From: a virus
Length of the DNA: 36,138 nt
Reading direction: 5' to 3' (one strand)
IMG/VR virus record: IMGVR_UViG_3300008110_000625
Span: 1 to 36,138 of that record
The translations under genes were made by a program, and so were the position numbers. Below, one piece after another: positions 22,598-35,645 of the stretch. Numbering within the stretch: the first letter of the stretch is position 1; each line of letters starts with the position of its first letter. Under the pieces are notes generated by a model. That model was not told where the DNA came from and made no database searches. It saw nothing but the letters and a program-made list of their open reading frames with translations.

Positions 22598-22825
22598 CTA
22601 TGTCTTTATATCTTCTTCTTTCTTAAGACCGTATGTAACCCATCTATACCATATTCGTTCGTGTATATAGTACTGAATTGGTTTGTAAACGAGTTCGGCA
22701 ACACCAAACGCAGCACCGATTTTAATTGACCCAGAAACTCCCCACATTATTACGAATCCAATCAAGGTACTCAAAACGCGATAACTGATGGTTTTCGCTA
22801 TATGTCGTTTTTTCTCTACTATCAT
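22598..22825 (-). CDS. DUF2061-type small membrane protein
   Basis: 75 residues with KTISYRVLSTLIGFVIMWGVSG at the N-terminus, an IGAAFGVAELVYKPIQYYIHERIW segment and a charged C-terminus. The pairing of K-T-I-S-Y-R-x-L with A-E-x-V-x-K-x-x-x-Y-Y-x-H-E-R-x-W matches the DUF2061 pattern as I know it, two membrane helices. Function unknown; homologues occur in Bacteroidota and Proteobacteria and as phage accessory genes. Its first bases overlap the stop of the preceding gene (ATGA). Confidence 0.75.
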   Translation of the reverse strand: MIVEKKRHIAKTISYRVLSTLIGFVIMWGVSGSIKIGAAFGVAELVYKPIQYYIHERIWYRWVTYGLKKEEDIKT

Positions 22826-23055
22826 CTTATTAATACTACGTCACCTTTCCAAATAACTTCAGTTGCTTGGCAACTTATGTGGTGTTTATCTACTTCTTGG
22901 TTTCTTAATGAATCCCAAACCGTATCTCGAGTCGTATGTACAGGTAGTTGAAATATAACATTACAACAAATGCGCTCCTCTCCATCAATCAATATTCTCC
23001 AAAAGTTATGATTATCTTTACATTGAGTGTTCCACCTTACCTTAACGTCTATCAT
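22822..23055 (-). CDS. Hypothetical phage protein, 77 aa
   Basis: Not recognised beyond similarity of pattern to small proteins I have seen in marine T4-like phages (VRWNTQCKDNHNFWRILIDGEE). It is a soluble, beta-rich 77-residue protein with three Cys (ICCNVIF and HISCQ) and several Trp. Starts and stops overlap both neighbours by four bases, so it is translated as part of the operon. No catalytic motif. Its place between the HAD phosphatase and the DUF2061 protein gives no clue to a role. Confidence 0.7.
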   Translation of the reverse strand: MIDVKVRWNTQCKDNHNFWRILIDGEERICCNVIFQLPVHTTRDTVWDSLRNQEVDKHHISCQATEVIWKGDVVLIR

Positions 23056-23393
23056 ATACCTGAATTTCTATTTAAATTTATTGCAACAGCTCTATCTACG
23101 TTTGGCTGTTCAGGATCACGGTCATTTATAAGATAACGAGTTCCTCTACCGATTCCAAAAACTATTTGATGATATTTTACCCCTAGCTTTTCTAGTTCTT
23201 GTTTTGTAAACACCTCTAGTTCAGGAGGACGAGCAGTTGTTATTACTATATGTGCACCTTTATTATACTCTTTGTTCACTAAATTGATAACGCTCTGTAT
23301 AGGTTCAGGTTCTGCTGTCTGAAGCACATCAAAAGGTCTATACTTTATAAGAGTACCATCGATGTCAACAAAACACGTAGGAAACTTCTTCAT
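23052..23393 (-). CDS. HAD-superfamily phosphatase
   Basis: 113 residues without a cap domain. Motif I is DIDGTL (Asp10, Asp12), motif II is VITTARPPE (Thr52-Arg55) and motif III is LINDRDP (Asp91 and Asp93), so all phosphatase signature residues are present. The size and the DxDGTL/TxAR/NDRD set fit small phage-encoded HAD phosphatases, which are often annotated with sugar-phosphate or polynucleotide phosphatase names. Adjacent nucleotidyltransferase and GT9-like genes point to a sugar-phosphate or activated-sugar substrate, as inference. Overlaps both neighbours by four bases. Confidence 0.85.
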   Translation of the reverse strand: MKKFPTCFVDIDGTLIKYRPFDVLQTAEPEPIQSVINLVNKEYNKGAHIVITTARPPELEVFTKQELEKLGVKYHQIVFGIGRGTRYLINDRDPEQPNVDRAVAINLNRNSGI

Positions 23394-23776
23394 AGCTTAC
23401 CTTCAGCTTTCATTTGCTCGCGGATCTTAGTTGCGGATATATCGTGAATGTCTTGAGGGGGTACGTGTTCAATAACATCGTAACCTACTCCACGGCCTAT
23501 ATTAATTGATTCAATATCTGGAATCTTCATGATATTTAGCTTACCCTCTTCTACAAGATCTTTTAACTCGATAGATAGATTCATTAGAATTTCTTGAGCC
23601 GTCCACGGGTTCTTTTCACTTACAGGGACGTCGCGAATACATAGCAACACTTTCTTTCCTTCTTCGAGGGCTTGATCAATAAGCCAACGATGTCCAGGAT
23701 GCCAAGGTTGCCATCTTCCGATAAACATAGCCCACTCCCCTGATTTACTTTGTGCTTTAGCTAGGTAGTTCTTCAT
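23390..23776 (-). CDS. HxGH-superfamily nucleotidyltransferase (cytidylyl/adenylyl type)
   Basis: 128 residues. FIGRWQPWHPGHRWLIDQAL carries the HPGH motif (residues 26-29), and ISATKIRE near the C-terminus is the ISTTKI-type motif of the TagD and PPAT/NMNAT superfamily. It transfers a nucleotide monophosphate from NTP to a phosphorylated acceptor. The size is that of glycerol-3-phosphate cytidylyltransferase (TagD), but the G-R-W-Q-P start is more like NMNAT/adenylyltransferases. The acceptor is unknown: a sugar phosphate is favoured by the HAD and GT9 neighbours; sulfate activation is unlikely because ATP sulfurylase is far larger. Overlaps the kinase gene by 20 bases. Confidence 0.85.
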   Translation of the reverse strand: MKNYLAKAQSKSGEWAMFIGRWQPWHPGHRWLIDQALEEGKKVLLCIRDVPVSEKNPWTAQEILMNLSIELKDLVEEGKLNIMKIPDIESINIGRGVGYDVIEHVPPQDIHDISATKIREQMKAEGKL

Positions 23777-24212
23777 TAGTATAACGCTTTATTGCATCAA
23801 CACATTCTGATATTGATAGTTTAGACGTGTCTAAATGTAATATACGTTCTTTTTCTGGTAATTCAAAATCTTGAACGTGAAATTTTTCTCTACCTCTTTC
23901 TCCTTCGTAGGTTAAATACACCCATTTAACATCGTCGGTTAAACTATTAAGGTAGTTGCGAGCCTCTCTATACGGATATACCAGTGATAGAATAATACCG
24001 TCGCTTCCTATACTATTTAGGTAGTGCGCAATGTCGCTAGCCCTGTTCAGGTTCTGAATACGCCCTTTCCTGTTGAAGCTTTTATTTTTAAAAATTTCAC
24101 GTAGCTCATCTCCGTCAATATTCCAGTATTGACTGAAGCATTCCTCTCCTATAAGCTTTTTTGCAAGCGTTGATTTACCGCAATGCGGTTGTCCAAATAA
24201 AACTATAATCAA
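23757..24212 (-). CDS. Adenylylsulfate (APS) kinase-like protein
   Basis: 151 residues, P-loop kinase that would phosphorylate APS to PAPS, the sulfuryl donor of sulfotransferases. Walker A is GQPHCGKS (7-14). The DGDELR motif (33-38) and the later RIQNLNRASDIAHYL and LVYPYREAR segments match the APS-kinase LDGDNxR, NIxRxxEVA and SPYRxxR signatures. The start is TTG at 24212, overlapping the sulfotransferase TGA as TTGA; no ATG is possible. The sulfotransferase gene directly before it is the natural user of its product. I see no ATP sulfurylase, so APS would come from the host. Confidence 0.87.
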   Translation of the reverse strand: MIIVLFGQPHCGKSTLAKKLIGEECFSQYWNIDGDELREIFKNKSFNRKGRIQNLNRASDIAHYLNSIGSDGIILSLVYPYREARNYLNSLTDDVKWVYLTYEGERGREKFHVQDFELPEKERILHLDTSKLSISECVDAIKRYTNEELPS

Positions 24213-25030
24213 TGTTTGTAATTGAAAGTATCAAAAAACCAATTAAAATTGTTGTATATCCATTCAGAGGTATAAGTACCTAGTATCTCTTTTGAATCGT
24301 CAGGTAGTGCTCCTAATTTATTTCTGATGGTATGATCTCCGTAGATACCGTGAACGGTATCGTCTTCGACTGTGATTTGAGGTATGTGATTAAAGTTATG
24401 TTGAAAATAAGGTATTTCAAGATATCGGTAGATACTCTGCATCATACCTTCAGGATTGGTACAGAGGTCTTCATACCTAATGATTAAAAAGTTTCTAGCT
24501 GTCTTATCAAGGATTGCTTGATATAATTTTGGTATAGCATGTCCAATTGGGTGACTTACGGCCCACTGTTCGACTCTCTGCTGTGTAGTTAGTCCTTTTA
24601 GTTTAGCATTATCTATCTCGCCCATGTCTCTATCGGGATTAGCTCTAAACTTTTTTTCCATAGAAGCAAATACTGCTCGTAAGTCTCTAACCATGTAGAG
24701 TACCTTTGGATTGGGGTAGATATTATTTACTAATGAGTAAATAGATCCCCAGTTTCTATTTTTGTCTAGAATGTAAGGTTTATCAGTAAGATTCTCTACA
24801 TACCCTCTTAATCCTTCTCTGCAAAAAGCATAGAATCCATCACGCCACATATCCTTATCTCCTGCGTATGCCTCTTTGTTGCCGTTATAACCTATTCTAG
24901 CGCCTAGAACTAAATCAATCATTCCTGATGTAGGTGTTACGTGGAAGTCGGAATTTTGGCCTATAAGGTTTTGTAGAAGCGTAGAGCCTGCTCTCGGTAA
25001 AGAGCTTTGATAAAATATTGTCTGTTTCAT
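24209..25030 (-). CDS. PAPS-dependent sulfotransferase
   Basis: 273 residues. The 5'-phosphosulfate loop SSLPRAGSTLLQNLI (9-23) and the 3'-phosphate-binding YMVRDLRAVFASM (112-124) are the two PAPS-binding signatures of the Sulfotransfer family, with Arg115 and Ser123 in place. An RYEDLCTNPEGMMQSIYRYLEIPY segment (about 195-218) is also typical. It transfers sulfate to hydroxyl or amine groups of glycans, proteins or small molecules; the acceptor cannot be read from sequence. It neighbours the APS kinase downstream and a GT9-like glycosyltransferase upstream, so a sulfated glycan is a sensible inference. Confidence 0.88.
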   Translation of the reverse strand: MKQTIFYQSSLPRAGSTLLQNLIGQNSDFHVTPTSGMIDLVLGARIGYNGNKEAYAGDKDMWRDGFYAFCREGLRGYVENLTDKPYILDKNRNWGSIYSLVNNIYPNPKVLYMVRDLRAVFASMEKKFRANPDRDMGEIDNAKLKGLTTQQRVEQWAVSHPIGHAIPKLYQAILDKTARNFLIIRYEDLCTNPEGMMQSIYRYLEIPYFQHNFNHIPQITVEDDTVHGIYGDHTIRNKLGALPDDSKEILGTYTSEWIYNNFNWFFDTFNYKH

Positions 25031-25032
25031 GA

Positions 25033-25977
25033 TTAAATATTACTAATTACTTCCTTGATATCAAATACATCTTCTAACTCCATATAAGGACATTCGTGTA
25101 TATTGTTTTCAAATTGAAAATCAAAAAGGTAAGATCCTATAAGCTGGTTTGCTCTTTTAGGTAGTTTAGCAGTAATATTGTTATGTAGGTTATACCCGAA
25201 TACAGTCGGTGAAGTACCTATCCAAAATACTGTAGAAGGTAGTTTAAAAGCAGCTGCAGCATGTTGAAGACATGAGTCGATTAAAATACGTTTTTGCGCA
25301 TTAATTAATATAGCAAATAACTCAATACCGGAGTACTGCTGATCAATCCTCTCTACTCCTTCAAGTCGATACCCGTCAGGTCTAGTTATCTGGAAGATAT
25401 GATATTGATCTTTGAATTTGTTAACAATAGTTTGCGCTAAATCTTGGGGAATATCTCGGGTCCAAGAATAGCTATATTTCTGTCCCTGTAGAGGTCCTCC
25501 ACTAGTTTGTATGACGATTGTTGGTTTTTGCCTTAACCAAAGACCGATTAGTTGTCTCTGCACAAAGTTAACATATACACTTGGTTGCTGTTCTGTATAA
25601 GTGATCTCTAAAAGATCGCACCAGTTTTCAATAAGATGTTTTGATTTAGTAATATGACCGGTTTGATTATAAGGTTCATGTCTACAGACAATTACATCCT
25701 TATTTTCTATATAATCCTCATAGAAATAAGGCGCTTGAGCTAGATTATAAACCCTATCAATGTATGGATTGTTTAGAAAGACTTCCGGATAGGATACTAC
25801 CATTATGAGTTTACGATCAGGATAAGCTTCTTTCAAGTCTTTACATAAAGCTGTGGCTGCTATATTTTTACCTAGTCCGCCCTGAATATGCCAAATAAAA
25901 TATTTATTTGATTTTTTAGATTTAAACTCTACTACGCTCTCTTCATGTTCAGGATTGTATACGTAACCTTGTTGCAT
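25033..25977 (-). CDS. GT9-like glycosyltransferase (heptosyltransferase-related)
   Basis: 314 residues with two Rossmann-like halves. The first half starts IWHIQGGLGKNIAATALCKDLK (27-48), the second contains IVIQTSGGPLQGQKYSYSW and closes with LIDSCLQHAAAAFKLPSTVFWIGTSP (232-257), where D-S-x-x-x-H-A-A-A is the GT9 donor-site signature. Similar proteins transfer heptose or related sugars to lipopolysaccharide, but many phage and bacterial members have other acceptors. Gene ends two bases before the sulfotransferase starts. No membrane segment, so it is probably cytoplasmic. Confidence 0.8.
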   Translation of the reverse strand: MQQGYVYNPEHEESVVEFKSKKSNKYFIWHIQGGLGKNIAATALCKDLKEAYPDRKLIMVVSYPEVFLNNPYIDRVYNLAQAPYFYEDYIENKDVIVCRHEPYNQTGHITKSKHLIENWCDLLEITYTEQQPSVYVNFVQRQLIGLWLRQKPTIVIQTSGGPLQGQKYSYSWTRDIPQDLAQTIVNKFKDQYHIFQITRPDGYRLEGVERIDQQYSGIELFAILINAQKRILIDSCLQHAAAAFKLPSTVFWIGTSPTVFGYNLHNNITAKLPKRANQLIGSYLFDFQFENNIHECPYMELEDVFDIKEVISNI

Positions 25978-25978
25978 A

Positions 25979-26617
25979 TTAAAATATTAATTCTGTTAAA
26001 TTTCTTTCATCTCCGAAACCTACTGTAGGTACTATGTTGAATGCAAGACTATGTCTGGGTTTATCTGTTTTATTTATAGGTACCGAATGGTTAAGATAGG
26101 AAGGGAAAAGAAGTAAAAGACCGGGTTCGAATATTATTGAAAATTCATTCTGAGAGTATTTCAGATTTTTTTTCTTGTCTACCGTTTTAGGTAGAATATA
26201 CGATACGTTAACTGCAGCGGCGATCTTGTGAAACTTGATAGCTGGTGTTTTTTCTACTGTAGGTCCGTAATAGAATACTCCTGAGATCAGTCCGTTAGGA
26301 TGGGTGTGCATCGTATGATGTTGCCCTGGTGCTTTTACTGAGATCCACGACTGTCCGAATCTATACTCGGAGTAATCGTATCCAAGTTGATCGGCATACA
26401 TCTTAACGTTACCTAAAATAAACTGCGCTAATTCTTTACTTTCTGGTCTATCTAAAATATAACTGTCTTTAGACCGGTAACCGTAATTATCATAATCAGC
26501 GTCTGTACCCATATCTTGCTTATCAAAAAACGATATTACCTTGGAAAAACCAGGCGGTATCATTGTTGTGTAAACAGGGATCGGGAATAGTTCTAGGATT
26601 TCATACTTAACTTGCAT
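25979..26617 (-). CDS. 2-oxoglutarate/Fe(II) oxygenase-like protein (TIGR02466 type), copy A
   Basis: About 212 residues from the ATG at 26617; an in-frame TTG three codons further upstream is less likely. HTHPNGLISGVFYY (104-117) supplies the conserved H-x-H-P motif, NHSVP (176-180) the distal His, and PRHSLAFN (187-194) the Arg that binds 2-oxoglutarate. The layout equals the TIGR02466 / 2OG-FeII_Oxy_5 family of phage oxygenases. The substrate is unknown; such enzymes hydroxylate amino acids, nucleobases or small molecules. It is a diverged paralogue of the next gene and overlaps it by 11 bases, suggesting a recent duplication. Confidence 0.85.
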   Translation of the reverse strand: MQVKYEILELFPIPVYTTMIPPGFSKVISFFDKQDMGTDADYDNYGYRSKDSYILDRPESKELAQFILGNVKMYADQLGYDYSEYRFGQSWISVKAPGQHHTMHTHPNGLISGVFYYGPTVEKTPAIKFHKIAAAVNVSYILPKTVDKKKNLKYSQNEFSIIFEPGLLLLFPSYLNHSVPINKTDKPRHSLAFNIVPTVGFGDERNLTELIF

Positions 26618-27254
26618 AACGCCCAAATATTATCTCTGAAATTGTTTCTTTGTCTCCTAGTGTTCCTTTTGTTAAGGCATTTATGCCTAACGCTTTCCTT
26701 GTTTTACTAGTTCTATTAGGGGGTACACCGTGAGTAACATAGGATGGAAATATAATAAAATTATTTCGTTGTGGTATAAAATAGATTTCTTCCTGAGAAA
26801 ATGGATGCTCCTGGTAATCCTCCTCTAAGGAAGGTTCCATATAAGTTCTATATTGAGATCCTGCTTTCTTACTAAAACATATTGCAGCATCTCCTGGTTG
26901 ATGATCAAAATAGAATACTCCTGCAAGGAGCGTATTTGGATGGGTGTGCGCTTTATGAAATTGACCTGGTTCTTTATAGGTAAGCCACGACTGAGCAAAC
27001 TGTAATTCTTTATACCGGTATCTCATTATATTAGTTGCAAACTCTCTAAAATGAAACATGAAAAAGTCTGCAAGAGGCTTACATATAGGATGATCTATAA
27101 TATAACTATTTTTTGAAATCCAACCATAAGGACTGTTTCTTCCGTCATTCATCTCACAGCTATCGAAGTACTTTACTATCTCAGTAGTATCTTCTTCATA
27201 AGTTGTTACGTAGAGCGGAATTGGAAAGAGAGGAAAAACATGTGATTTACTCAT
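26607..27254 (-). CDS. 2-oxoglutarate/Fe(II) oxygenase-like protein (TIGR02466 type), copy B
   Basis: 215 residues, starting at ATG 27254, two bases after the halogenase stop. FPIPLYVTTYE near the N-terminus and HTHPNTLLAGVFYF (103-116), THGVPPN (174-180) and RKALGIN (186-192) align with copy A. Spacing between the H-x-H-P and distal His, about 70 residues, agrees. The order of motifs fits the Jelly-roll oxygenase family. Side-by-side paralogues in one operon imply related but non-identical substrates. Substrate unknown. Confidence 0.85.
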   Translation of the reverse strand: MSKSHVFPLFPIPLYVTTYEEDTTEIVKYFDSCEMNDGRNSPYGWISKNSYIIDHPICKPLADFFMFHFREFATNIMRYRYKELQFAQSWLTYKEPGQFHKAHTHPNTLLAGVFYFDHQPGDAAICFSKKAGSQYRTYMEPSLEEDYQEHPFSQEEIYFIPQRNNFIIFPSYVTHGVPPNRTSKTRKALGINALTKGTLGDKETISEIIFGRYAS

Positions 27255-27255
27255 A

Positions 27256-28731
27256 CTACTTTAATCTATGAAAACTTTCAATATAATCAAAATGATGCAT
27301 AGCTGTTGGTACTGTCTCTGGTAATTTTATAGGTCTTATTTCTTTAGATACCGGGGTATAATATTGAATATTTCGTGCTGCGGTAGTTTGAGCAAGCATC
27401 ATCACGTCGTAATCGTTTTTGATTAAATCACAGTAAGCATTAAGGTCTTTCATTGCTAAAGTCCAATCATCCCACTTTACCTGTTTTTGATCTATCCAAA
27501 ATGGAGTATCAAACCTATGACAGGTTTTATACTGATTTAAAATAAAAGTTGTCCAGAATTTATAAGCTTTTTTAATTTCACTGTTTGCAAAAATTAGAGC
27601 ATTATTATTATAATTTCCGTTATACTTTACACTCTTATCTTTGAATGCCTGGTGGTAGGTTTCAAGAACTCTCTCTAATACTACGGTAACTGTACTAGTT
27701 AAAGCTAAACCGGGGGCATCTAGAGGTTCTAAAAATCCGTTAGCCATTCCAATTGAACAACTATTAATTTTAAACGTCTGCCTGTTAACCCGAGGTCTAA
27801 AATCAACTACACTAGGTATAATAGATTCATCCCCTATATCCGTTATAAATTCATTTATCGCTTGATCTACGCTTACATGGTTTTCAGAAAAAGTATAGCC
27901 TGTCCCTATTCTTTCCCATGTTGGAGTAATCCATCTCCACCCGTATTTCATGGTCTTCGCTACCGTGTAAGGGTGAAACTGCTCTCTTTTATTTGTATAA
28001 GGAAGTGGGTAAACGACAGCTTTAGTTGTCAGCAAAACATCTCCTATACTATCGTACTGTTCGTTAAATACATTCTTTACTTTTAAATTCTGGCCTGTTG
28101 TATTTATATAATAATCAGCCTCTACTATTCTCCCGCTTTCCAACATCAAATTTGGAATATACCCTTGTTCTATAAAATTAACCCGGTCAACAGTATCTGC
28201 TATAAACTCTACTTTAGAGGATTTAAATGCTTGCTTTTTTAAAAATTCTATATACTGACCTGCATCAAAATGGTACGTATTCGGATATTCGTTTTCTAAC
28301 TCCATTCCATAGTTCTCTGGAAATACGTTATTTTTACCAACTACTTCATTCCATATTGTGGAACCGTAGATATCGTGTATGAATGTTTCAGGGTCTTTAT
28401 TACCTAGTAACATTATATACTTTCTTGCAGATAATTTAGTTTTTTTAAAAGGTATCTCAGACTTAAAAAAATGAATCCAGTCGTGCTTACTCCATCCTTT
28501 ATAATATACTCCGTATTTTACAGCTGCATGCGATTCTCTTATAAAATCTTCAAGTTTAACATTAAATTTTGTATGTGCCATAGGTAATGTCAATGTAGTT
28601 GACTCACCTACCCCAATGTGTGGTATTTTAGGGGAACCTATTATCGTTACTTTCTCTACAAAAGAAAGTTCTTTTAACTGATTACCTACCAGCCATCCAC
28701 TAGCTCCTGAACCTACTATGCAAATATGCAT
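27256..28731 (-). CDS. Flavin-dependent (tryptophan-type) halogenase
   Basis: 491 residues. An N-terminal FAD dinucleotide site GSGASGW (7-13) and GVGEST (40-45) are followed by AAVKYGVYYKGW, with Lys72 at the catalytic lysine position of PrnA (Lys79), and by WRWITP (265-270), a close variant of the WxWxIP motif that separates halogenases from other flavin monooxygenases (Ile to Thr). A FLEPLDAPGLALTS segment (345-360 region) matches the halogenase FLEPLEATS motif. Chlorinates or brominates an aromatic substrate with FADH2 and O2. Substrate unknown. Flanked by 2-oxoglutarate oxygenases on both sides, which is the unusual context. A reductase partner is not in the window. Confidence 0.9.
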   Translation of the reverse strand: MHICIVGSGASGWLVGNQLKELSFVEKVTIIGSPKIPHIGVGESTTLTLPMAHTKFNVKLEDFIRESHAAVKYGVYYKGWSKHDWIHFFKSEIPFKKTKLSARKYIMLLGNKDPETFIHDIYGSTIWNEVVGKNNVFPENYGMELENEYPNTYHFDAGQYIEFLKKQAFKSSKVEFIADTVDRVNFIEQGYIPNLMLESGRIVEADYYINTTGQNLKVKNVFNEQYDSIGDVLLTTKAVVYPLPYTNKREQFHPYTVAKTMKYGWRWITPTWERIGTGYTFSENHVSVDQAINEFITDIGDESIIPSVVDFRPRVNRQTFKINSCSIGMANGFLEPLDAPGLALTSTVTVVLERVLETYHQAFKDKSVKYNGNYNNNALIFANSEIKKAYKFWTTFILNQYKTCHRFDTPFWIDQKQVKWDDWTLAMKDLNAYCDLIKNDYDVMMLAQTTAARNIQYYTPVSKEIRPIKLPETVPTAMHHFDYIESFHRLK

Positions 28732-28732
28732 A

Positions 28733-29065
28733 CTAAAGTATGTTTCTAAGTATAATTGTTAATGAAATTCCTATCCAAAGAGTATTAAAAGCAATTAAGG
28801 TAGGTAAAGATTTTCGCATACTAGCCCAAATAAGAAGAGAAGAGGTTATAAGTGTAAAGAAATGTAACCACCAAATCTCCTTACCGAAAACTAGTCCCGG
28901 TACGATAATTAAAGCTTTAGCCATCCAGGCTGCAAACTCTACTGTATTATAGTCTGTCCAATATTCTTTTTTAAAGAACATTAAATATCTTTCTAATATT
29001 CTTCTATAGCCTATAAGCCAGTATAAAAATCCTACAGTGAGTACAAATACAGTTATTAATATCAT
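28733..29065 (-). CDS. Small membrane protein, 110 aa
   Basis: Not recognised. Three or four hydrophobic segments: about residues 2-20, 47-60, 66-82 and 90-108, with a charged basic loop RRILERYLMFFKKEYW between the first two. No catalytic or transporter motif visible. It overlaps the stop of the DUF2892-like gene by four bases and is followed by the halogenase after one base, so it is translated with them. A membrane anchor or scaffold for the operon's enzymes is possible but speculative. Confidence 0.7.
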   Translation of the reverse strand: MILITVFVLTVGFLYWLIGYRRILERYLMFFKKEYWTDYNTVEFAAWMAKALIIVPGLVFGKEIWWLHFFTLITSSLLIWASMRKSLPTLIAFNTLWIGISLTIILRNIL

Positions 29066-29271
29066 TTTTTAAAGCCTAACTTTTCCCAAATAATTTTGAA
29101 AGGACAGATTCCGGTTAAAGCAGCAAGTGGCAGTAAAGTTGGCGGTAACCACAGTACCCAACTAACATTGCTGAATCCTGTTAGCCAATTACCGAGGAAA
29201 ACAACAAGTCCAATTGATAAAAAAGTCATTCGTGCTGATGGAGAAGCATCTCCGAGATTGAATAGTTTCAT
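29062..29271 (-). CDS. DUF2892-like small membrane protein
   Basis: 69 residues with two hydrophobic segments (about 16-31 and 36-55). The N-terminal R-M-T-F-L-S-I-G and the LPLAALTGICPFKIIWEKLG closing segment fit the DUF2892 pattern, in which L-T-G-x-C-P is the signature; the family occurs alone or fused to rhodanese domains in bacteria. The function is unknown in phages. Overlaps the next gene by four bases. Confidence 0.7.
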   Translation of the reverse strand: MKLFNLGDASPSARMTFLSIGLVVFLGNWLTGFSNVSWVLWLPPTLLPLAALTGICPFKIIWEKLGFKK

Positions 29272-29284
29272 GTGATTTTATATT

Positions 29285-29890
29285 TTATTTGTTAATAAAC
29301 TCTTTAGGTACAAAATTGAAGGCTATTGAAATTCTCTCTTGATTTGATTCGTTTCTTTCGACGTGATGCTTGACCCAGCTCGGAAATAGGTAAAAAGTAG
29401 ATTCTTGAGCCGGCTTGGTAACCGATAGAGCATTAGACATTGTCTGTTCTCTTTCGACTTTACCTGTCATAAAGAATTCCATGTTGTCTCCCCTATGTAG
29501 CACTAAATCTCCCATGTTACTCTGGGGAACTGATACGTAGTATACTCCTGATAAAACACTGCTTTGATGATCGTGTATTAGGTTATAATCGTGATGTCCG
29601 TTAATGTTAATCCAAAAATTACCTAATTGCAGATCTTTGATTCCAGTATATCGAGCACAAACATCATTTGCAAATACTGTGAGATCGTTAAATAACCTTT
29701 CAAGAGCTGTAGGTATAGGGAATAGCAGTTCGCCGCTATGCCATCCTCCCCTATTTGAGATAGTAACTCCTGGTTTCTGTCTACGTGTCTCTAAACAGTA
29801 CTGCTTGATAGATTGATTGTCGATTCCTGATACGGGACACTCCCATACAGGGGTTGTAAACCAGAGTTGTTCATAAACTTTAAATTCCAT
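29285..29890 (-). CDS. 2-oxoglutarate/Fe(II) oxygenase-like protein (TIGR02466 type), copy C
   Basis: 201 residues. LIHDHQSSVLSGVYYVS (104-120) carries the family's H-x-H motif and the S-G-V-Y-Y strand; VKHHVERN (173-180) gives the distal His and ERISIAFNFVP (185-195) the 2-oxoglutarate Arg. It is clearly related to copies A and B but separated from them by the halogenase and two membrane proteins. It lacks the H-T-H-P wording of the other two, so it is a distinct subfamily. Substrate unknown. Confidence 0.83.
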   Translation of the reverse strand: MEFKVYEQLWFTTPVWECPVSGIDNQSIKQYCLETRRQKPGVTISNRGGWHSGELLFPIPTALERLFNDLTVFANDVCARYTGIKDLQLGNFWININGHHDYNLIHDHQSSVLSGVYYVSVPQSNMGDLVLHRGDNMEFFMTGKVEREQTMSNALSVTKPAQESTFYLFPSWVKHHVERNESNQERISIAFNFVPKEFINK

Positions 29891-29901
29891 AAAATATTTT
29901 T

Positions 29902-30513
29902 TTACCTAAATGGGCGTCCGCCTGTCCAAAATACCATACACTTACGTTCTCCTCTAGTAATTGGTCTCACCCTATGCATACAAAATGCTGGAAAGCAAAT
30001 AACATCTCCTTTTTCTCGCGGGACAATAATAGATTCTTTTCCGCCAAACCAAATTTCAAAATCACCGCCTTCGTAGTCTTTAGAATCAGAAAGTTGAATA
30101 GTGGTGGCAATTTTTCTCTTATTAACCCCTAATGCTCCAACATCCATATGCCAATCAAGGTGTCCGCCATCGGTTGGATAGATGACATAATGAATAGGGT
30201 CGGTTACAGTATCAATATCAAAGTGAAATAACTTACTATTTGCTTCTAATACTAAAGGAAATAAAATATCGTAAAGCCATTTTGTATGTGGGGCTGGATT
30301 TAGATAGGCAATATCTCTGTTATTAGTCTTGTAAGAATCCGTATCACTTCCTAACTCTCTAACCCCTGTTCTACCTTTAGAAAATTTATAATTCGATTTT
30401 ACCATCTCATCTAACTCTTGAATCATTTGATCGTTAAATACGTTCTTGAAATAGTAAAAAGTACTCCAGTTAGACTGAGGTTTAAAATCATTATACGGTT
30501 TTAATGGGAACAT
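29902..30513 (-). CDS. Prolyl-4-hydroxylase-like 2-oxoglutarate/Fe(II) oxygenase
   Basis: 203 residues. GGHLDWHMDVG gives the facial-triad His122-x-Asp124, the distal His is in CFPAFCMHRVRPITRGER (His180), and Arg190 ten residues later is the 2-oxoglutarate contact. YEGGDFEIWF between them is the usual GGEL strand. This is the PKHD/P4H branch, distinct from the TIGR02466 branch of the three neighbours. T4-like cyanophages commonly encode related genes. Target could be proline or lysine in a protein, or a free metabolite. Confidence 0.88.
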   Translation of the reverse strand: MFPLKPYNDFKPQSNWSTFYYFKNVFNDQMIQELDEMVKSNYKFSKGRTGVRELGSDTDSYKTNNRDIAYLNPAPHTKWLYDILFPLVLEANSKLFHFDIDTVTDPIHYVIYPTDGGHLDWHMDVGALGVNKRKIATTIQLSDSKDYEGGDFEIWFGGKESIIVPREKGDVICFPAFCMHRVRPITRGERKCMVFWTGGRPFR

Positions 30514-30517
30514 ATAT

Positions 30518-31105
30518 TTATTTTTCTTGTCTATCGATCATAGTATACCATCCGGTTAGTATATACTTTGTTTGTGAAGGCGAAGGAACACCGCGATGTA
30601 AATACATCCAGTCGGAAGGCCAAATAACCAATTTACCTTGTATAGCAGATTCAAAGTGATGTTGATAGTAGAACTCTGTTTCACCTCTGTCCGTGATAGT
30701 GTTTAGGTATAAGATCCAAACTAGATACCTAGTATTACACCTGTTAGTAGCTCTTTCACAATGCCATCCATAAAAACCTTCACCTGGATCATAACGTTGT
30801 AGATTGAATAACGAACTTATTTGTAATGGATCTAAATTAGAAAAAGCTAAAGAATGCCTATCTCTATAATCTCTAAGTCCTCTTTCTAAGACATCTACTA
30901 ACGAGCCTAACAAGGTACCCCATACAGGGTGATTCCGGTATTGGGGGTGGAAGGTAATATCAGTAGACTTTTTAGCTCCCGTTGAAGCGGTACCATCAGG
31001 GCCGTAGGATACTCCAGGGCGCTTGTCTTCTGATGCTTCAAAGGAATCTATAAAAGACTTACATAATTCCGGGGAAAGGGCATTTTCTTTTCTGTAGAAA
31101 AACAT
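30518..31105 (-). CDS. 2-oxoglutarate/Fe(II) oxygenase-like protein with His-x-Glu site
   Basis: 195 residues. YDPGEGFYGWHCERA carries His115-Cys-Glu117 where most relatives have His-x-Asp; LHRGVPSPSQTKYILTGWY gives distal His170 and Lys180 where the 2-oxoglutarate Arg normally sits. GETEFYYQ and LVIWPSDW supply the usual strands. The His-x-Glu variant is rare but known in active enzymes such as clavaminate synthase and AsnO. The Arg to Lys change is also seen in some families. It is first of the oxygenase genes in the operon, 20 bases after the 234-residue gene. Confidence 0.82.
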   Translation of the reverse strand: MFFYRKENALSPELCKSFIDSFEASEDKRPGVSYGPDGTASTGAKKSTDITFHPQYRNHPVWGTLLGSLVDVLERGLRDYRDRHSLAFSNLDPLQISSLFNLQRYDPGEGFYGWHCERATNRCNTRYLVWILYLNTITDRGETEFYYQHHFESAIQGKLVIWPSDWMYLHRGVPSPSQTKYILTGWYTMIDRQEK

Positions 31106-31125: not shown

Positions 31126-31830
31126 CTATTGCTGGGAATCGGCTTGTTGAGTTAGTTGTTGACGAGTCTGTTCAAAGGTAAGTAACGTATTACCTTCTGT
31201 TTTTAGTCTCTGAAGAGTCTGTAGAGGACCTACAGCATTAATAACTTCACTGGGTTCGCTATTAGGGCTTAATGCCTTAACTCTATTTTCAAGTCTCAAT
31301 CCCAGACTTTCAGCCTGATGTGTATTAACATTTCTATCATCGAAACTTCCGTCGTTAAGTTCGGTCTTAATTTTAGACCAAGTCTGAATTTCTCTTACAC
31401 GATCGTGAGCTACTTGTTCCATACAGGCTTTTCCATAAAGATTCTGATCGAGATCAATCTGAATTTCCATGATTTCTAGCATATCTCCTTTTAACTCTGC
31501 TTCTTTCATTTTACGCTCGAGCTTAAGTCTTTCAACATCGGCCCTACGCATATCAAAAGAGAGATTCATCATTGCATCAAAGTGCGCAGACATCTCTCTA
31601 ACAGATTGCCAGTATTTAGAAGCAGGAGTTGGGTGCTTGGCATCATTGAGAACTGATACACGCATTTCCGTTTCGGTACGGAAAATTTGCTTTTTATTCC
31701 AGTTATCAGCCAGTTCTTCTTTTAATCTTAAAACTTCTTTTGCATCTTCCGGTTTGAGAACCGCTAGAATATTCTGTAAATCACTAGGGATAGCTAATTC
31801 GTAACTCTGTTTTTCTTGATTTTCACTCAT
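31126..31830 (-). CDS. Conserved-looking hypothetical phage protein, 234 aa
   Basis: A largely helical, charged, 234-residue protein. The KHPTPASKYWQSVREM segment (about 66-81) and DRVREIQTWSKIKTEL (about 147-162) resemble proteins I have seen in T4-like marine phages next to structural genes, with unknown function. Coiled-coil probability looks high for residues 90-130 (RADVERLKLERKMKEAELKG). The Gln-rich C-terminus is probably disordered. Lies between the small 78-residue gene and the oxygenase cluster, so it may belong to the structural side rather than the modifying operon. Confidence 0.68.
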   Translation of the reverse strand: MSENQEKQSYELAIPSDLQNILAVLKPEDAKEVLRLKEELADNWNKKQIFRTETEMRVSVLNDAKHPTPASKYWQSVREMSAHFDAMMNLSFDMRRADVERLKLERKMKEAELKGDMLEIMEIQIDLDQNLYGKACMEQVAHDRVREIQTWSKIKTELNDGSFDDRNVNTHQAESLGLRLENRVKALSPNSEPSEVINAVGPLQTLQRLKTEGNTLLTFEQTRQQLTQQADSQQ

Positions 31831-31885: not shown

Positions 31886-32122
31886 TTATGGAAGAGTTAT
31901 AACTATTTGTTTTCCTTCAGGATCAGTTACTCCAGCGATAGCTGCGTCGATGAGAGCTTGAGCCTCATCTCTGGTCTTTTCTACAGCATTAGTGCGTGAT
32001 GCCCAGGCTTCATTACTTTCAGTAGCCCAGACATTACCTGGATAGCCTGCAATATGTGATCTTTCGCTGTCTTGGTGAGTAATGAACCCTTTTCCGGTGT
32101 TTTCTGCTACAAAGTATTTCAT
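31886..32122 (-). CDS. Small hypothetical protein next to fibre gene, 78 aa
   Basis: Not functionally recognised. The pattern YFVAENTGKGFITHQDSERSHIAG, then AWASRTNAVEKTRDEAQALIDAAIAG, is one I associate with small genes beside tail-fibre genes in marine phages. A beta-rich N-terminus is followed by one helix. The stop codon lies in the loop of a 7-bp hairpin. A fibre-associated chaperone or adaptor is a guess based on position, 30 bases after the kelch-repeat fibre. Confidence 0.65.
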   Translation of the reverse strand: MKYFVAENTGKGFITHQDSERSHIAGYPGNVWATESNEAWASRTNAVEKTRDEAQALIDAAIAGVTDPEGKQIVITLP

Positions 32123-32152: not shown

Positions 32153-35100
32153 TTAACTTAATCTTATTCTAATGAGGCTTCCACTTCTATAAAGCCCTCC
32201 GAGCGGTATTCCTCCGGTTGCTGCTTCGGTATCGTCTGCAAAATTTAAGCTAGCGGATACAGCGGATAGAATTACGGCTCCTGATGAAGAAGAATAGTCG
32301 AAAGTTTTGTTAAAAGCGAAGACAGTAGCTGCAGTAAATTCTTCTGTACAACTACATTGACCTGCTGGTACATCTCCTCCCATAGCAAGAGCACAGGATG
32401 TTATACCTGCTCCACCTGGATTTCGTCTAGCTGTAATCATAGCAGCTTTCGCCGACCACGATGTTCCGTTGTACTCTTCTGTACAAGTTCGTGCGACTGA
32501 ACCATCGTAACCTCCAAAAGCGAGGCCTGCATTCTGCGTACCTGCACCTCCGAGGCTATTTCTAGCAGTAATCATTGCACCGCCTGCTGCCCAGGATGTT
32601 CCATTATATTCTTCTGTACATGTAACGCGAGCACCAGTAAAACCTCCCATCGCAAGTCCGGCGTTTTGTGTTCCTGCTCCGGCTAGACTAGTTCTTGCTG
32701 TAATCATTGCACCGCCGGCTGTCCAAGAGGTACCATCATACTCTTCCGTACAAGCTAGTAGTGCAAAAGGGGAAGCTGCTAAGGATCCTCCCATCGCAAG
32801 TCCGACGTTTTGTGTTCCTGCGCCTGCAGGGCATTGTCTAGCACAGATTAAATTACCTCCTGCAGACCAGGATGTCCCGTCGTACTCTACTGTACAACTA
32901 CTGACTCCGCCTGGCGTATTTCCTCCGAAGGCTGATGCAGCATTTTGTGTTCCTGCTGCTGCCATACTGGTGACTAAGATTGGTAGTCCGCCGCCTCCTG
33001 ACCAGGACGTACCGTTATATTCTTCGGTGTTTGTAGTGAATGGATTTCCTCCAGCTAAAAGACCGGCATTCTGCGTTCCGGCTCCTGCACCAGCACCTCG
33101 GGCCGTGATTAAAGCACCGCCTGCAGACCAAGCGGCAGGTCCTGTTGGGCTACCGGCGAGATAGCAGAATCCTACACCTCCTGTATGAGTTAGAGAGCCG
33201 GAGAAAGTTACGGATCCGGTATTTATAAAAGGGCCTATGTTGGTTTTAGATCCGGATGTATTTAAAGAGCCGGTAACTATCAGGCTTCCGTTTACAGATC
33301 CAGTACCTGTGAAAGGAAATATTGTTATCGCGCTAGATGCACTGGTGGCAAATGAAGCGCTTAAAGCTATCGAAGCGGTACCGAATAAAGAACCGGTTGC
33401 TGATATCGCTCCATTTGTATTACAGTAGTTAAAAGTTCTAACTGCTTCAAAGTAAGGAAGTATGAATTCTTCTGTACAAGAAAATTGTGGAGCATTACTA
33501 CGACCTCCAAAGGCTAACCCTAATGCTTGTGTTCCAGCTCCTGCAAGTTGATATCTAGCAGTAATTAATGCAGCGCTCGTAGTCCAAGAAGTTCCGTTAT
33601 ATGTTTCTGTACAGCCTGCATTTCCTCCTCCCATAGCTAAACCTGCGTTTTGTGTACCTGCGCCAGCGAGATCAGCTCTTGCTGTGTTTAAAGTACCTCC
33701 TGTCGCCCAAGACGTACCGTCGTATTCTTCAGTTACATTTGTTGCACTAGGGTTAACACCGCCAAAAGAAAGACCGGCGTTTTGTGTACCAGCTCCTGCG
33801 AGTTGACGAACAGCAATAATTAAAGCACCGCCTGATGTCCATGTTGTACCGTCATACTCTTCTGTAATCGACTGTCTGGGATACGAACCTCCAAATGCTA
33901 GAGCTGCGTTCTGACTTCCTGCTCCTGCTCGTTGGCTGCAATCACTAATCATAGCACAGCCTGCTGTCCATGTGTTTCCATCGTATTCTTCTGTACAAGT
34001 AGTATAACTTCCTCCAGCAGCAAGACCGGCGTTCTGTGTACCTGCTCCTACTGGGTAGGTTCTGGCGGTGATTAATGCACCGCCTGCTGTCCACGATGTT
34101 CCATTATATTCTTCTGTACACGCTCGAATTGTAGGGGCACAGTAACCGCCGAAGGCTAAGCCGGCGTTTTGTGTGCCTGCTCCTCCCAAGATCCATCTAG
34201 CAGTAATTAATGCACCGCCTGCAGACCAGCCTCCGAATGTACCGAGGTAACTGAACTGTGCGCTTCCTGTTACTATAAGGCTTCCGCTAGTAACAAGTGA
34301 TCCGGTTAATATACCTACATTTGTTGCAAAAGAAGCTGTTCCTAGAAGAGACCCGGTAGCTGATATCGATCCTGATAAATTATCGTAAATAAATGTTGAT
34401 GTCATTGCTACTGTCGGGTCGGTCACACTAAATTCTTCAGTACACGATAATACAGCAAAAGGGCTTATTTTATATCCTCCAAATGCTAGAGCTGAAGTTC
34501 CTGATGCTCCTGCACCCCTTACGTAAATTCTTCCACAAATCATAGCAGAAGTGCTCGACCAGGTTGTTCCGTTATACTGTTCGGTACAGTTAGAAGTTGT
34601 ATAGCCGGGAAAATTACATCCTCCAAATGCAATAGCATCATTTTGTATACCTGCACCTCCTAGCGTATATCTCGCTTGACTTAATGCACCGCCTACTGCC
34701 CAGGATGTTCCGTCATATTCTTCAGAACAAGCCATAATAGCAAACGAAGGACTAGGTGAAGCGCCAGCAATCGATAGTGCGGCGTTTTGCGTACCAGCTC
34801 CGGCTGCTGCAGATCCACCTATAATCATTGCTCCGCCCGCCGTCCACGATGTCCCATCGTACTCTTCTGTGCATTGATATGCACCAAATCCACCGAACGC
34901 TAAACCGGCGTTTTGTGTCCCTGCACCTGTACGTAAGCACGACACGTCAATCAAAGTACCGCCCGCTGTCCACGATGTTCCGTCATACTCTTCAGAACAT
35001 TGTTTTGAAGGGTTCCTACCTGCGAAAGTAAGACCGGCATTTTGTGTACCTGCTGCTGCGTTTGCACACATGAGGCCGATCATTGCTCCGCCCGCCGTCC

Positions 35101-35587
35101 ACGATGTTCCGTCATACTCTTCTGTACACTGGTAGACAGCACCAGGAGGTCCGTAACCTCCAGCGGCTAGACCGGCATTTTGTGTTCCTGTTCCAGCACC
35201 ACAGCTTCTGGCTACAATTAAAGATCCGCCTGTTGACCATCCGGAGAGGCCCGGTATAAGTCTGTTATAAGCAAGTAGCATGCTTCCTGTAACTACTACA
35301 GATCCGCTCACAATCGCAGAACCTGTAAAAGGGAATGGATTGACATTAGCGACATACGATGCAGTAGCGGCAAATGAGGCGGTCGTAGCGTTAACTGTAT
35401 ATGATGCACTAGTGGCAAATGAGGCGGTCGTAGCGTTAACTGTATATGATGCACTAGTGGCATATGAGGAGCTTCCAAACAGAGAGCCTGTAAGTTGAGC
35501 AGAGCTACCGGAAGTTATTAACTGTCCGGATATAGTTACGGAATTCCCTGTAAAAGGTGTAATATTATTTACCTTAAGAGTACTCAT
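32153..35587 (-). CDS. Tail fibre with three successive six-bladed kelch-like propellers
   Basis: 1144 residues. The N-terminus STLKVNNITPFTGNSVTISG is a fibre start seen in marine phages, followed by two 15-residue TVNATTASFATSASY repeats (about 49-78) and Thr-Gly-Ser-rich linkers. Three arrays (about 115-386, 452-708 and 818-1085) each contain six units of the kind AGAGTQNAGLAFGG, then CTEEYDGTSWTAGGAMITAR, a kelch/galactose-oxidase-like blade with conserved Gly-Gly and Trp. The C-terminus (NFADDTEAATGGIPLGGLYRSGS) is a short module common on marine fibres. It probably binds host surface glycans. The divergence among blades and the near-identical linkers suggest recombination. No S74 domain is present. 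Confidence 0.85.
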   Translation of the reverse strand: MSTLKVNNITPFTGNSVTISGQLITSGSSAQLTGSLFGSSSYATSASYTVNATTASFATSASYTVNATTASFAATASYVANVNPFPFTGSAIVSGSVVVTGSMLLAYNRLIPGLSGWSTGGSLIVARSCGAGTGTQNAGLAAGGYGPPGAVYQCTEEYDGTSWTAGGAMIGLMCANAAAGTQNAGLTFAGRNPSKQCSEEYDGTSWTAGGTLIDVSCLRTGAGTQNAGLAFGGFGAYQCTEEYDGTSWTAGGAMIIGGSAAAGAGTQNAALSIAGASPSPSFAIMACSEEYDGTSWAVGGALSQARYTLGGAGIQNDAIAFGGCNFPGYTTSNCTEQYNGTTWSSTSAMICGRIYVRGAGASGTSALAFGGYKISPFAVLSCTEEFSVTDPTVAMTSTFIYDNLSGSISATGSLLGTASFATNVGILTGSLVTSGSLIVTGSAQFSYLGTFGGWSAGGALITARWILGGAGTQNAGLAFGGYCAPTIRACTEEYNGTSWTAGGALITARTYPVGAGTQNAGLAAGGSYTTCTEEYDGNTWTAGCAMISDCSQRAGAGSQNAALAFGGSYPRQSITEEYDGTTWTSGGALIIAVRQLAGAGTQNAGLSFGGVNPSATNVTEEYDGTSWATGGTLNTARADLAGAGTQNAGLAMGGGNAGCTETYNGTSWTTSAALITARYQLAGAGTQALGLAFGGRSNAPQFSCTEEFILPYFEAVRTFNYCNTNGAISATGSLFGTASIALSASFATSASSAITIFPFTGTGSVNGSLIVTGSLNTSGSKTNIGPFINTGSVTFSGSLTHTGGVGFCYLAGSPTGPAAWSAGGALITARGAGAGAGTQNAGLLAGGNPFTTNTEEYNGTSWSGGGGLPILVTSMAAAGTQNAASAFGGNTPGGVSSCTVEYDGTSWSAGGNLICARQCPAGAGTQNVGLAMGGSLAASPFALLACTEEYDGTSWTAGGAMITARTSLAGAGTQNAGLAMGGFTGARVTCTEEYNGTSWAAGGAMITARNSLGGAGTQNAGLAFGGYDGSVARTCTEEYNGTSWSAKAAMITARRNPGGAGITSCALAMGGDVPAGQCSCTEEFTAATVFAFNKTFDYSSSSGAVILSAVSASLNFADDTEAATGGIPLGGLYRSGSLIRIRLS
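32333..33136 (-). repeat. Third six-unit kelch-like repeat array in fibre
   Basis: Six units of about 45 residues, each holding a QNAGLA(F/M)GG and a (T/S)(E/V)EYxGTSW element, occur at about residues 818-1085. The last unit ends with CTEEF. Divided from array 2 by a Thr/Gly/Ser linker of about 110 residues. Confidence 0.8.
33464..34234 (-). repeat. Second six-unit kelch-like repeat array in fibre
   Basis: Six units in residues about 452-708, starting WSAGGALITARW and ending SCTEEF. The blade core (E-E-Y-x-G-x-x-W) is retained in five; unit 5 has T-E-T-Y. Closed by a linker with SATGSLFGTAS, nearly the same as the one after array 1 (SATGSLLGTAS). Confidence 0.8.
34430..35245 (-). repeat. First six-unit kelch-like repeat array in fibre
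   Basis: Six units in residues about 115-386, the first starting WSTGGSLIVARS. It is the most diverged of the three arrays: loops of 4-14 residues with extra Cys (LMCANA, VSCLRT, FGGCN) and unit 6 has SGTSALAFGG without the Gln-Asn. Confidence 0.8.
35369..35458 (-). repeat. Exact 45-bp tandem duplication in fibre N-terminal linker
   Basis: Two identical copies (35369-35413 and 35414-35458), in frame, each coding 15 residues of the TVNATTASFATSASY type. Partial copies flank both ends, so it is part of a longer array. Being identical at the DNA level it looks recent. Confidence 0.9.
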
Positions 35588-35638: not shown

Positions 35639-35645
35639 ATAAATA
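35639..35645 (-). promoter_or_regulatory. TATTTAT box in the gap ahead of the kelch fibre gene
   Basis: Minus strand GGTACTATTTATAGATAC, 52 nt before the fibre ATG at 35587, so further away than the other boxes. The flank GGTACTATTTAT is shared with the box at 22536-22547. A perfect 10-base palindrome, ATCTTAAGAT, lies at 35651-35660, just upstream. The 119-base gap holds no gene. Confidence 0.35.

Follow-up and report, generated by a model that had tools for sequence, protein, structure and literature searches.

A modular phage operon of oxygenase, glycosyltransferase, sulfation and halogenase genes that may decorate a kelch-type tail fibre

Chemically modified receptor-binding proteins of phages are poorly known. 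Among the closest described systems are the 2-oxoglutarate (2OG)/Fe(II) oxygenases of cyanophages, for which a role of 2-oxoglutarate has been proposed (Sullivan et al. 2010, PMC3037559), and VirX1, the nearest characterised viral relative of the halogenase discussed below, which has an open active site that accepts large substrates (PMC8407142). The literature searched for phage sulfation and 3'-phosphoadenosine 5'-phosphosulfate (PAPS, activated sulfate), for DUF2061 and for fibre decoration contained nothing that deals directly with these subjects. The subject here is a single 36-kb virus record (IMG/VR IMGVR_UViG_3300008110_000625, 36,138 nucleotides, called the window). It carries an operon at positions 22,598-31,105, on the minus strand throughout, that adjoins the gene for a kelch-type tail fibre. 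We judge the chance to be about even that the products of this operon decorate the phage's own tail fibre.

A first-pass annotation of this DNA described 15 closely packed or overlapping genes that include at least ten modifying enzymes and three small membrane proteins, and this description holds. All 15 open reading frames are confirmed on one strand, with gaps of 1-13 nucleotides or overlaps of 4-20 nucleotides. Eleven encode probable enzymes: five members of 2OG/Fe oxygenase families, a halogenase, a glycosyltransferase (GT) of GT9 fold, a sulfotransferase, a kinase, an HxGH adenylyltransferase and a HAD phosphatase. These are assigned by Pfam, with g9 placed by fold and g13 below the Pfam cut-off. 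The order of transcription is g1 and g2 (PF13640), g3 (PF13759), g4, g5, g6, g7 and g8 (PF13759), and then g9-g15. By Kyte-Doolittle hydropathy, the products of g4, g5 and g15 each contain one or more hydrophobic segments, a call that is marginal for g4 and g15. Among isolated phages the tail sheath is nearest to that of Flavobacterium phage vB_FspM_immuto_2-6A (54% identity), and the source is probably a T4-like phage of Bacteroidota with flavobacteria as its host. A cyanophage origin is rejected because of this sheath match, and the relatives also indicate Bacteroidota.

The halogenase, sheath, GT and sulfotransferase served as queries in scans of viral contigs for relatives. In 19 of 40 non-redundant environmental loci that carry the GT, at least five operon families occur in window order on one strand (for example, L129/L130 and L145), and the order is conserved for up to ten families. 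The recurring arrangement is fibre, 31886, 31126, OxyA, OxyB, OxyC, OxyD/E, GT, sulfotransferase, kinase, adenylyltransferase, DUF2061, (84-amino-acid gene), sheath, where OxyA to OxyE correspond to oxygenases g1, g2, g3, g7 and g8. Gene 31126 (31126..31830; this and all following window coordinates are on the minus strand) encodes a conserved 234-amino-acid protein directly upstream of OxyA, and 31886 (31886..32122) a small conserved protein of 78 amino acids that adjoins the fibre; both belong to the linked block in relatives. A second arrangement (L153-L173) consists of OxyA, OxyC, OxyD/E, sulfotransferase, propeller genes and GT, with no sheath within the 10 kb retrieved. Because linked order is conserved in this way, the operon cannot be regarded as the random heap of accessory genes that the first-pass annotation had named as its alternative.

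The locus is modular. It combines oxygenases and a GT, a kinase-adenylyltransferase-DUF2061 set that occurs with varying sulfotransferases, and an optional halogenase. A co-ordinated modification operon, as first proposed, is thus upheld, while a single fixed pathway is not: the parts behave as modules, of which the halogenase is an optional one that few cassettes possess. The sulfation genes originally recognised likewise stand, within a broader unit of kinase, adenylyltransferase, DUF2061, sulfotransferase and GT9-like genes. The full combination had been called unfamiliar, and the locus is absent from all isolated phages searched; DNA similarity among isolated phages was nil, and protein searches of the phage collection did not find the linked cassette. 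The halogenase-bearing combination is particular to this lineage.

The fibre gene (32153..35587) encodes a kelch-type beta-propeller protein of 1144 amino acids with approximately 18 repeats of the EEY[DN]GTSW type (phrog_27227), and its homologues are operon-linked in relatives. Among the cassette contigs that reach about 14 kb, a fibre gene is present on 19 of 23. Propeller genes of 315 amino acids interrupt the operon in L129, L148, L159, L166 and further contigs; the oxygenase-GT-sulfotransferase block of L153-L173 sits with fibres. The oxygenases, the GT and the small genes 31126 and 31886 co-occur with kelch-propeller fibres. Among GT-bearing loci, 16 have at least two oxygenases and a kelch fibre, three have only the oxygenases, four only the kelch fibre and eight neither (Fisher p = 0.007, calculated for physically linked genes, so that the events are not fully independent). 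Of the three targets originally suggested, this linkage clearly favours the phage's own fibre, without proving it; nothing indicates a small metabolite, and the host surface is retained as a rival. Against the fibre, the relatives fetched with the sheath include sulfation cassettes without kelch fibres or oxygenases, and the fibre linkage may reflect co-inheritance of the late structural region.

A contig from a Flavobacteriaceae metagenome-assembled genome (L178) is probably phage DNA that was binned with a flavobacterium. Its fibres, which lie beside homologues of g1, g3, g9 and g10, mix collagen-like GTQG repeats with kelch propellers. Tyrosine sulfation at the EEY[DN]GTSW repeats of the fibre was considered in view of the resemblance of g10 to protein-tyrosine sulfotransferases (TPST). 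It was dropped as evidence, because tyrosine is dominant there also in loci that lack g10 and because the Tyr-Asp...Trp spacing is the canonical kelch blade motif, made of structural residues.

The promoter-like boxes of the region are consistent with joint expression of fibre and operon. The sequence TATTTAT occurs 12 times on the gene strand, and six of these copies (minus strand, 1282, 17659, 18691, 19695, 22067 and 22541) sit 18-24 nucleotides 5' of start codons, compared to 0.28 expected; none of 5000 random placements matches this number. These six boxes appear to act as promoter elements in the phage. As first noticed, no such box interrupts the operon, and none is present on the gene strand between 22,580 and 35,638. 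The nearest promoter-like box upstream of the operon (35639..35645) is located 52 nucleotides upstream of the fibre gene, and the fibre and the operon may therefore be carried on one shared transcript.

In some relatives, other genes have been exchanged into this position, next to different fibres. These include GT4 and GT2-like genes with an FkbM methyltransferase (L083 and L086), a carbamoyltransferase (L273), and a GT25 gene with a PF00685 sulfotransferase (L094), so that the kinase-adenylyltransferase-DUF2061 triad stands next to another sulfotransferase type as well. Cassettes L254-L256 have inserted ADP-heptose genes, which in L255 encode an ADP-heptose kinase, adenylyltransferase and epimerase. 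The genes swapped in are of a surface-decoration type. Many cassettes without kelch genes also encode a conserved protein of 111-125 amino acids (MIFGQINPVLS...) directly before the GT/sulfotransferase pair (L083:5233-5577, L086:6480-6824, L027:1411-1755 and L032:4284-4619).

The five oxygenase-family proteins fall into two Pfam families. Oxygenase A (g1, 30518..31105; PF13640, 2OG-FeII_Oxy_3, 40 bits; phrog_61) carries the facial triad as HxE...H, and the PKHD/YbiX-like oxygenase B (g2, 29902..30513; PF13640, 49 bits; NCBIfam PRK05467 subthreshold) carries it as HxD...H. Oxygenase C (g3, 29285..29890; PF13759, 2OG-FeII_Oxy_5, 82 bits; TIGR02466 above cut-off), oxygenase D (g7, 26607..27254; PF13759, 64 bits; 83% identity in L003) and oxygenase E (g8, 25979..26626; PF13759, 72 bits) have HxH in place of HxD/E, with HxH...H in g3. 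This substitution is a weak point of the fibre-decoration model described below; the same HxH is found in the solved PF13759 members 3bvc and 2rg4.

Gene g9 (25033..25977) has no Pfam or NCBIfam glycosyltransferase match and no PDB sequence match, and it is assigned by fold alone as a heptosyltransferase-like GT. Its AlphaFold2 model (predicted local distance difference test score 80) matches the GT-B heptosyltransferase-type fold of GT9 in Foldseek (E 6.6e-10, probability 1.0, template-modelling score 0.58), with GT9, WaaF/WaaC and TibC among the matches.

Gene g6 (27256..28731) encodes a flavin-dependent halogenase of the tryptophan type (PF04820, Trp_halogenase, 226 bits) with PrnA and VirX1 as PDB relatives. 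The FAD-binding GxGxxG is present as GSGASG. Residues K72 and E335, which correspond to the catalytic Lys and Glu of PrnA (K79 and E346), are invariant in ten aligned sequences, as is WRWITP, which differs from WxWxIP by Thr for Ile at the fifth position. The alignment to PrnA stops at residue 411 of 538 and leaves unmatched the C-terminal PrnA residues that bind free tryptophan; free tryptophan is thus probably not the substrate of g6. By analogy, an open active site like that of VirX1 would suit an aromatic group linked to protein or glycan. The operon has no recognised flavin reductase gene, which counts against the decoration model. The halogenase occurs in the cassette only of the window, its near-identical copies, L003 (70%), L109 (65%) and L315 (63%). 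It is therefore an optional addition that distinguishes this strain, and the rest of the cassette is usually found without it. Elsewhere, a 2OG oxygenase lies no more than 8 kb from the halogenase in 24 loci, out of 45 non-redundant ones in total, and a separate, unrelated phage group (L010) has the order collar fibres, OxyA, tail-fibre chaperone, OxyB and halogenase.

Gene g10 (24209..25030) encodes a PAPS-dependent sulfotransferase (PF13469, Sulfotransfer_3, 66 bits). Both parts of the PAPS site, the 5'-phosphosulfate loop PRxGSTLL and the 3'-phosphate Arg...Ser, are conserved, with P12, R13, G15, T17, L18, R115 and S123 invariant in 12 sequences. The nearest solved structures by profile are protein-tyrosine sulfotransferases (TPST1, E 1.6e-11), which g10 appears to resemble; sulfation of a sugar is equally possible because a glycosyltransferase adjoins. 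In L179 a g10 homologue is adjacent to an APS (adenosine 5'-phosphosulfate) kinase-CysD/PAPS-reductase-domain fusion, and in L182 to a true APS kinase and a YadA-like adhesin. The cellular homologues in L180, L182, L183 and L184 all adjoin YadA-like adhesins.

The three remaining sulfation candidates are closely linked. Gene g11 (23757..24212) encodes an APS-kinase-like P-loop kinase of 151 amino acids (PF01583, 38 bits) whose P-loop, DGD and APS-binding Arg/Asn are invariant in 15 aligned sequences. Gene g12 (23390..23776) encodes a 128-amino-acid HxGH adenylyltransferase of the NMNAT/PPAT fold class (PF01467, CTP_transf_like) with the motifs GRWQPWHxGH and ISATKIR, and g15 (22598..22825) a DUF2061 membrane protein (PF09834, 58 bits). 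The kinase and adenylyltransferase are never separated in 24 cassettes, and DUF2061 accompanies them in 23. Among cells, DUF2061 is present in 51 of 61 Flavobacteriaceae genomes sampled, and with a single exception the loci read have CysD and/or APS kinase next to it. Some of the copies in these genomes (L201-L237) have two domains and approximately 140-170 amino acids. The literature searched describes no sulfate-activation role for DUF2061. Because DUF2061 lies beside cysC/cysD in Flavobacteriaceae, the kinase-adenylyltransferase-DUF2061 set is best read as sulfate activation; a role in PAPS supply is likely, not proven. An independent scan with g12, for which at least 587 viral contig matches were confirmed, gave 50 non-redundant loci, of which 42 have DUF2061; 27 of these 42 have a sulfotransferase, called by the g10 profile or the sulfotransferase-loop motif, within 6 kb.

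These elements can be combined in a model of fibre decoration. The cassette would be expressed late together with the kelch-propeller fibre, and its products would modify this fibre, or kelch proteins related to it, ahead of assembly. The five oxygenase-family proteins would hydroxylate fibre residues or an attached glycan, and g9 would add a sugar that, by analogy, may be heptose-like. The products of g11 and g12, with the membrane protein g15, would raise the supply of PAPS, which would serve g10 as the donor for sulfation of the fibre or of its glycan. In this strain, the flavin halogenase might additionally halogenate an aromatic group. The outcome would be a chemically diversified and negatively charged receptor-binding surface.

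One weak point of this model is the source of PAPS, and several observations count against g11 and g12 as its makers. The g11 protein lacks the classical C-terminal lid of APS kinases (FTGIDxPYE), with FHVxDFExP or similar instead, and it scores below the cut-off of NCBIfam APS-kinase models. The g12 protein has neither ATP-sulfurylase motif (QxRNPxHxxH of Sat or the PP-loop of CysD) and no Pfam match to an ATP-sulfurylase or PAPS-reductase domain; its identity as a known ATP sulfurylase is unsupported by sequence or fold. Fifteen of the 42 DUF2061 loci, some of them short, have no recognised sulfotransferase within 6 kb, and eight of the 50 g12 loci have neither DUF2061 nor a recognised sulfotransferase, with a DNA methyltransferase adjoining at least one of these eight. 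In L301 the pair is directly followed by an N6/N4 DNA methyltransferase, again without DUF2061 or a sulfotransferase, and L287, L289, L292-L300, L303, L305 and L309-L311 have a similar layout. A fused kinase-g12 form adjoins a NADAR gene in Stenotrophomonas phages. Since these homologues occur away from sulfation genes, g11 and g12 may serve another purpose. One tentative possibility, compatible with fibre decoration, is that they act on a nucleotide cofactor of NAD (nicotinamide adenine dinucleotide) type, as a small-molecule kinase and an adenylyltransferase like those of nicotinamide mononucleotide (NMN), while g10 draws on host PAPS. The curated families and folds closest to g12 are indeed NMN adenylyltransferases, with a best NCBIfam score of 39 that falls short of the cut-off of 127. 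However, g11 matches APS-kinase models and keeps the DGD and APS-site residues, and the DUF2061 found in most loci is a neighbour of cysC/cysD in Flavobacteriaceae. At the other extreme, it is rather improbable that the operon encodes a system for sulfating and halogenating the virion in which g12, g11 and DUF2061 serve as a minimal PAPS synthase. In such a system g12 would be a new kind of ATP sulfurylase, not related to CysDN and different from Sat, and the fibre would be the sulfated product.

It is unlikely that the cassette instead remodels host lipopolysaccharide (LPS) or capsule during infection, where sulfated or hydroxylated sugars could exclude competing phages or keep virions off debris. 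Such a role would fit the small membrane proteins of the operon, the resemblance of the g9 fold to LPS heptosyltransferases and GT9, and the ADP-heptose genes of some variants, and a 166-kb phage (L123/L204) has the kinase-adenylyltransferase-DUF2061 set among sugar epimerase and WavE-like genes. However, the cassette genes adjoin and sometimes surround fibre genes, and the cassettes contain no recognised O-antigen polymerase, flippase or acetyltransferase. Less plausible still are metabolic accessory genes at a fibre site that is merely a tolerated insertion hotspot, where the oxygenases would consume 2-oxoglutarate and so shift nitrogen signalling in the host, while sulfur metabolism would be shifted by the sulfur genes. 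The role proposed for cyanophage oxygenases (PMC3037559), the frequency of such enzymes in cyanophages and the differing contents of the relatives are in keeping with this explanation. It fits poorly with an order kept for up to ten families, with oxygenases that co-segregate with one fibre type and with swapped-in genes of surface-modification types, and the NtcA-based proposal concerned cyanobacterial hosts. Bacterial flavin halogenases mostly belong to natural-product pathways, but a small halogenated, sulfated metabolite directed against competitors or the host is very improbable, given that the operon contains no recognised scaffold-building enzyme and that most homologous cassettes lack the halogenase.

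The remaining genes of the operon are g4, g5, g13 and g14. The small membrane protein g4 (29062..29271), recognised by hydropathy, has a 96% identical copy in L003. Gene g5 (28733..29065) encodes a small multi-pass membrane protein, and a close homologue, read by eye, lies directly after the kinase-adenylyltransferase-DUF2061 set in L308 (6600-6935), by which g5 is also part of the wider set. The small HAD phosphatase g13 (23052..23393) is a variable part of the operon. Compared with the window and L001, a near-identical contig (L002:15339-15573) has lost about 104 bases in this gene, which is thereby disrupted; this suggests that g13 is dispensable. Gene g14 (22822..23055) encodes a 77-amino-acid protein that is present in the closest relatives only, for example, L129.

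If fibre decoration is correct, the many 2OG oxygenases, halogenases and sulfotransferases of phages that lack an assigned role could be given one, and host recognition could be altered by chemistry beyond sequence change. In that case the locus would also be a source of compact enzymes that activate sulfate or halogenate large substrates. The kinase-adenylyltransferase pair is so abundant in viral contigs that knowledge of its reaction would allow many genes to be annotated.

Each known system shares some features with this locus and differs in others. The closest isolated phage by tail sheath, vB_FspM_immuto_2-6A, has no such operon annotated around its sheath (20 kb upstream and downstream to the record end). 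TibC, a heptosyltransferase that acts on an autotransporter adhesin, shares the GT9-type fold of g9 and has a protein target, but it is only 12-14% identical to g9, which lacks a Pfam GT9 match. TPST1/2, enzymes that sulfate protein tyrosines with acidic flanks, provide the best solved-structure profile match of g10 and have the PAPS motifs in common with it, whereas the similarity is remote and g10 has a glycosyltransferase gene beside it. The cysC-DUF2061-cysD cluster of Flavobacteriaceae places APS kinase and DUF2061 next to each other as in the phage, which has an HxGH adenylyltransferase in place of CysD/CysN. VirX1 of cyanophage Syn10 and cyanophage prnA are phage flavin halogenases that keep the catalytic Lys and Glu, with a relationship to g6 that is detectable at E 4e-32; g6 shares no more than about 34% identity with the phage halogenases in the catalogue and is housed in an oxygenase-GT-sulfation operon adjoining fibres. 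Finally, T4-like cyanophages carry several 2OG-Fe(II) oxygenases per genome from the same Pfam and PHROG families (PMC3037559), whereas the five found here are arranged in fixed order and tied to a kelch-fibre type, in phages whose sheaths are related to that of a Flavobacterium phage.

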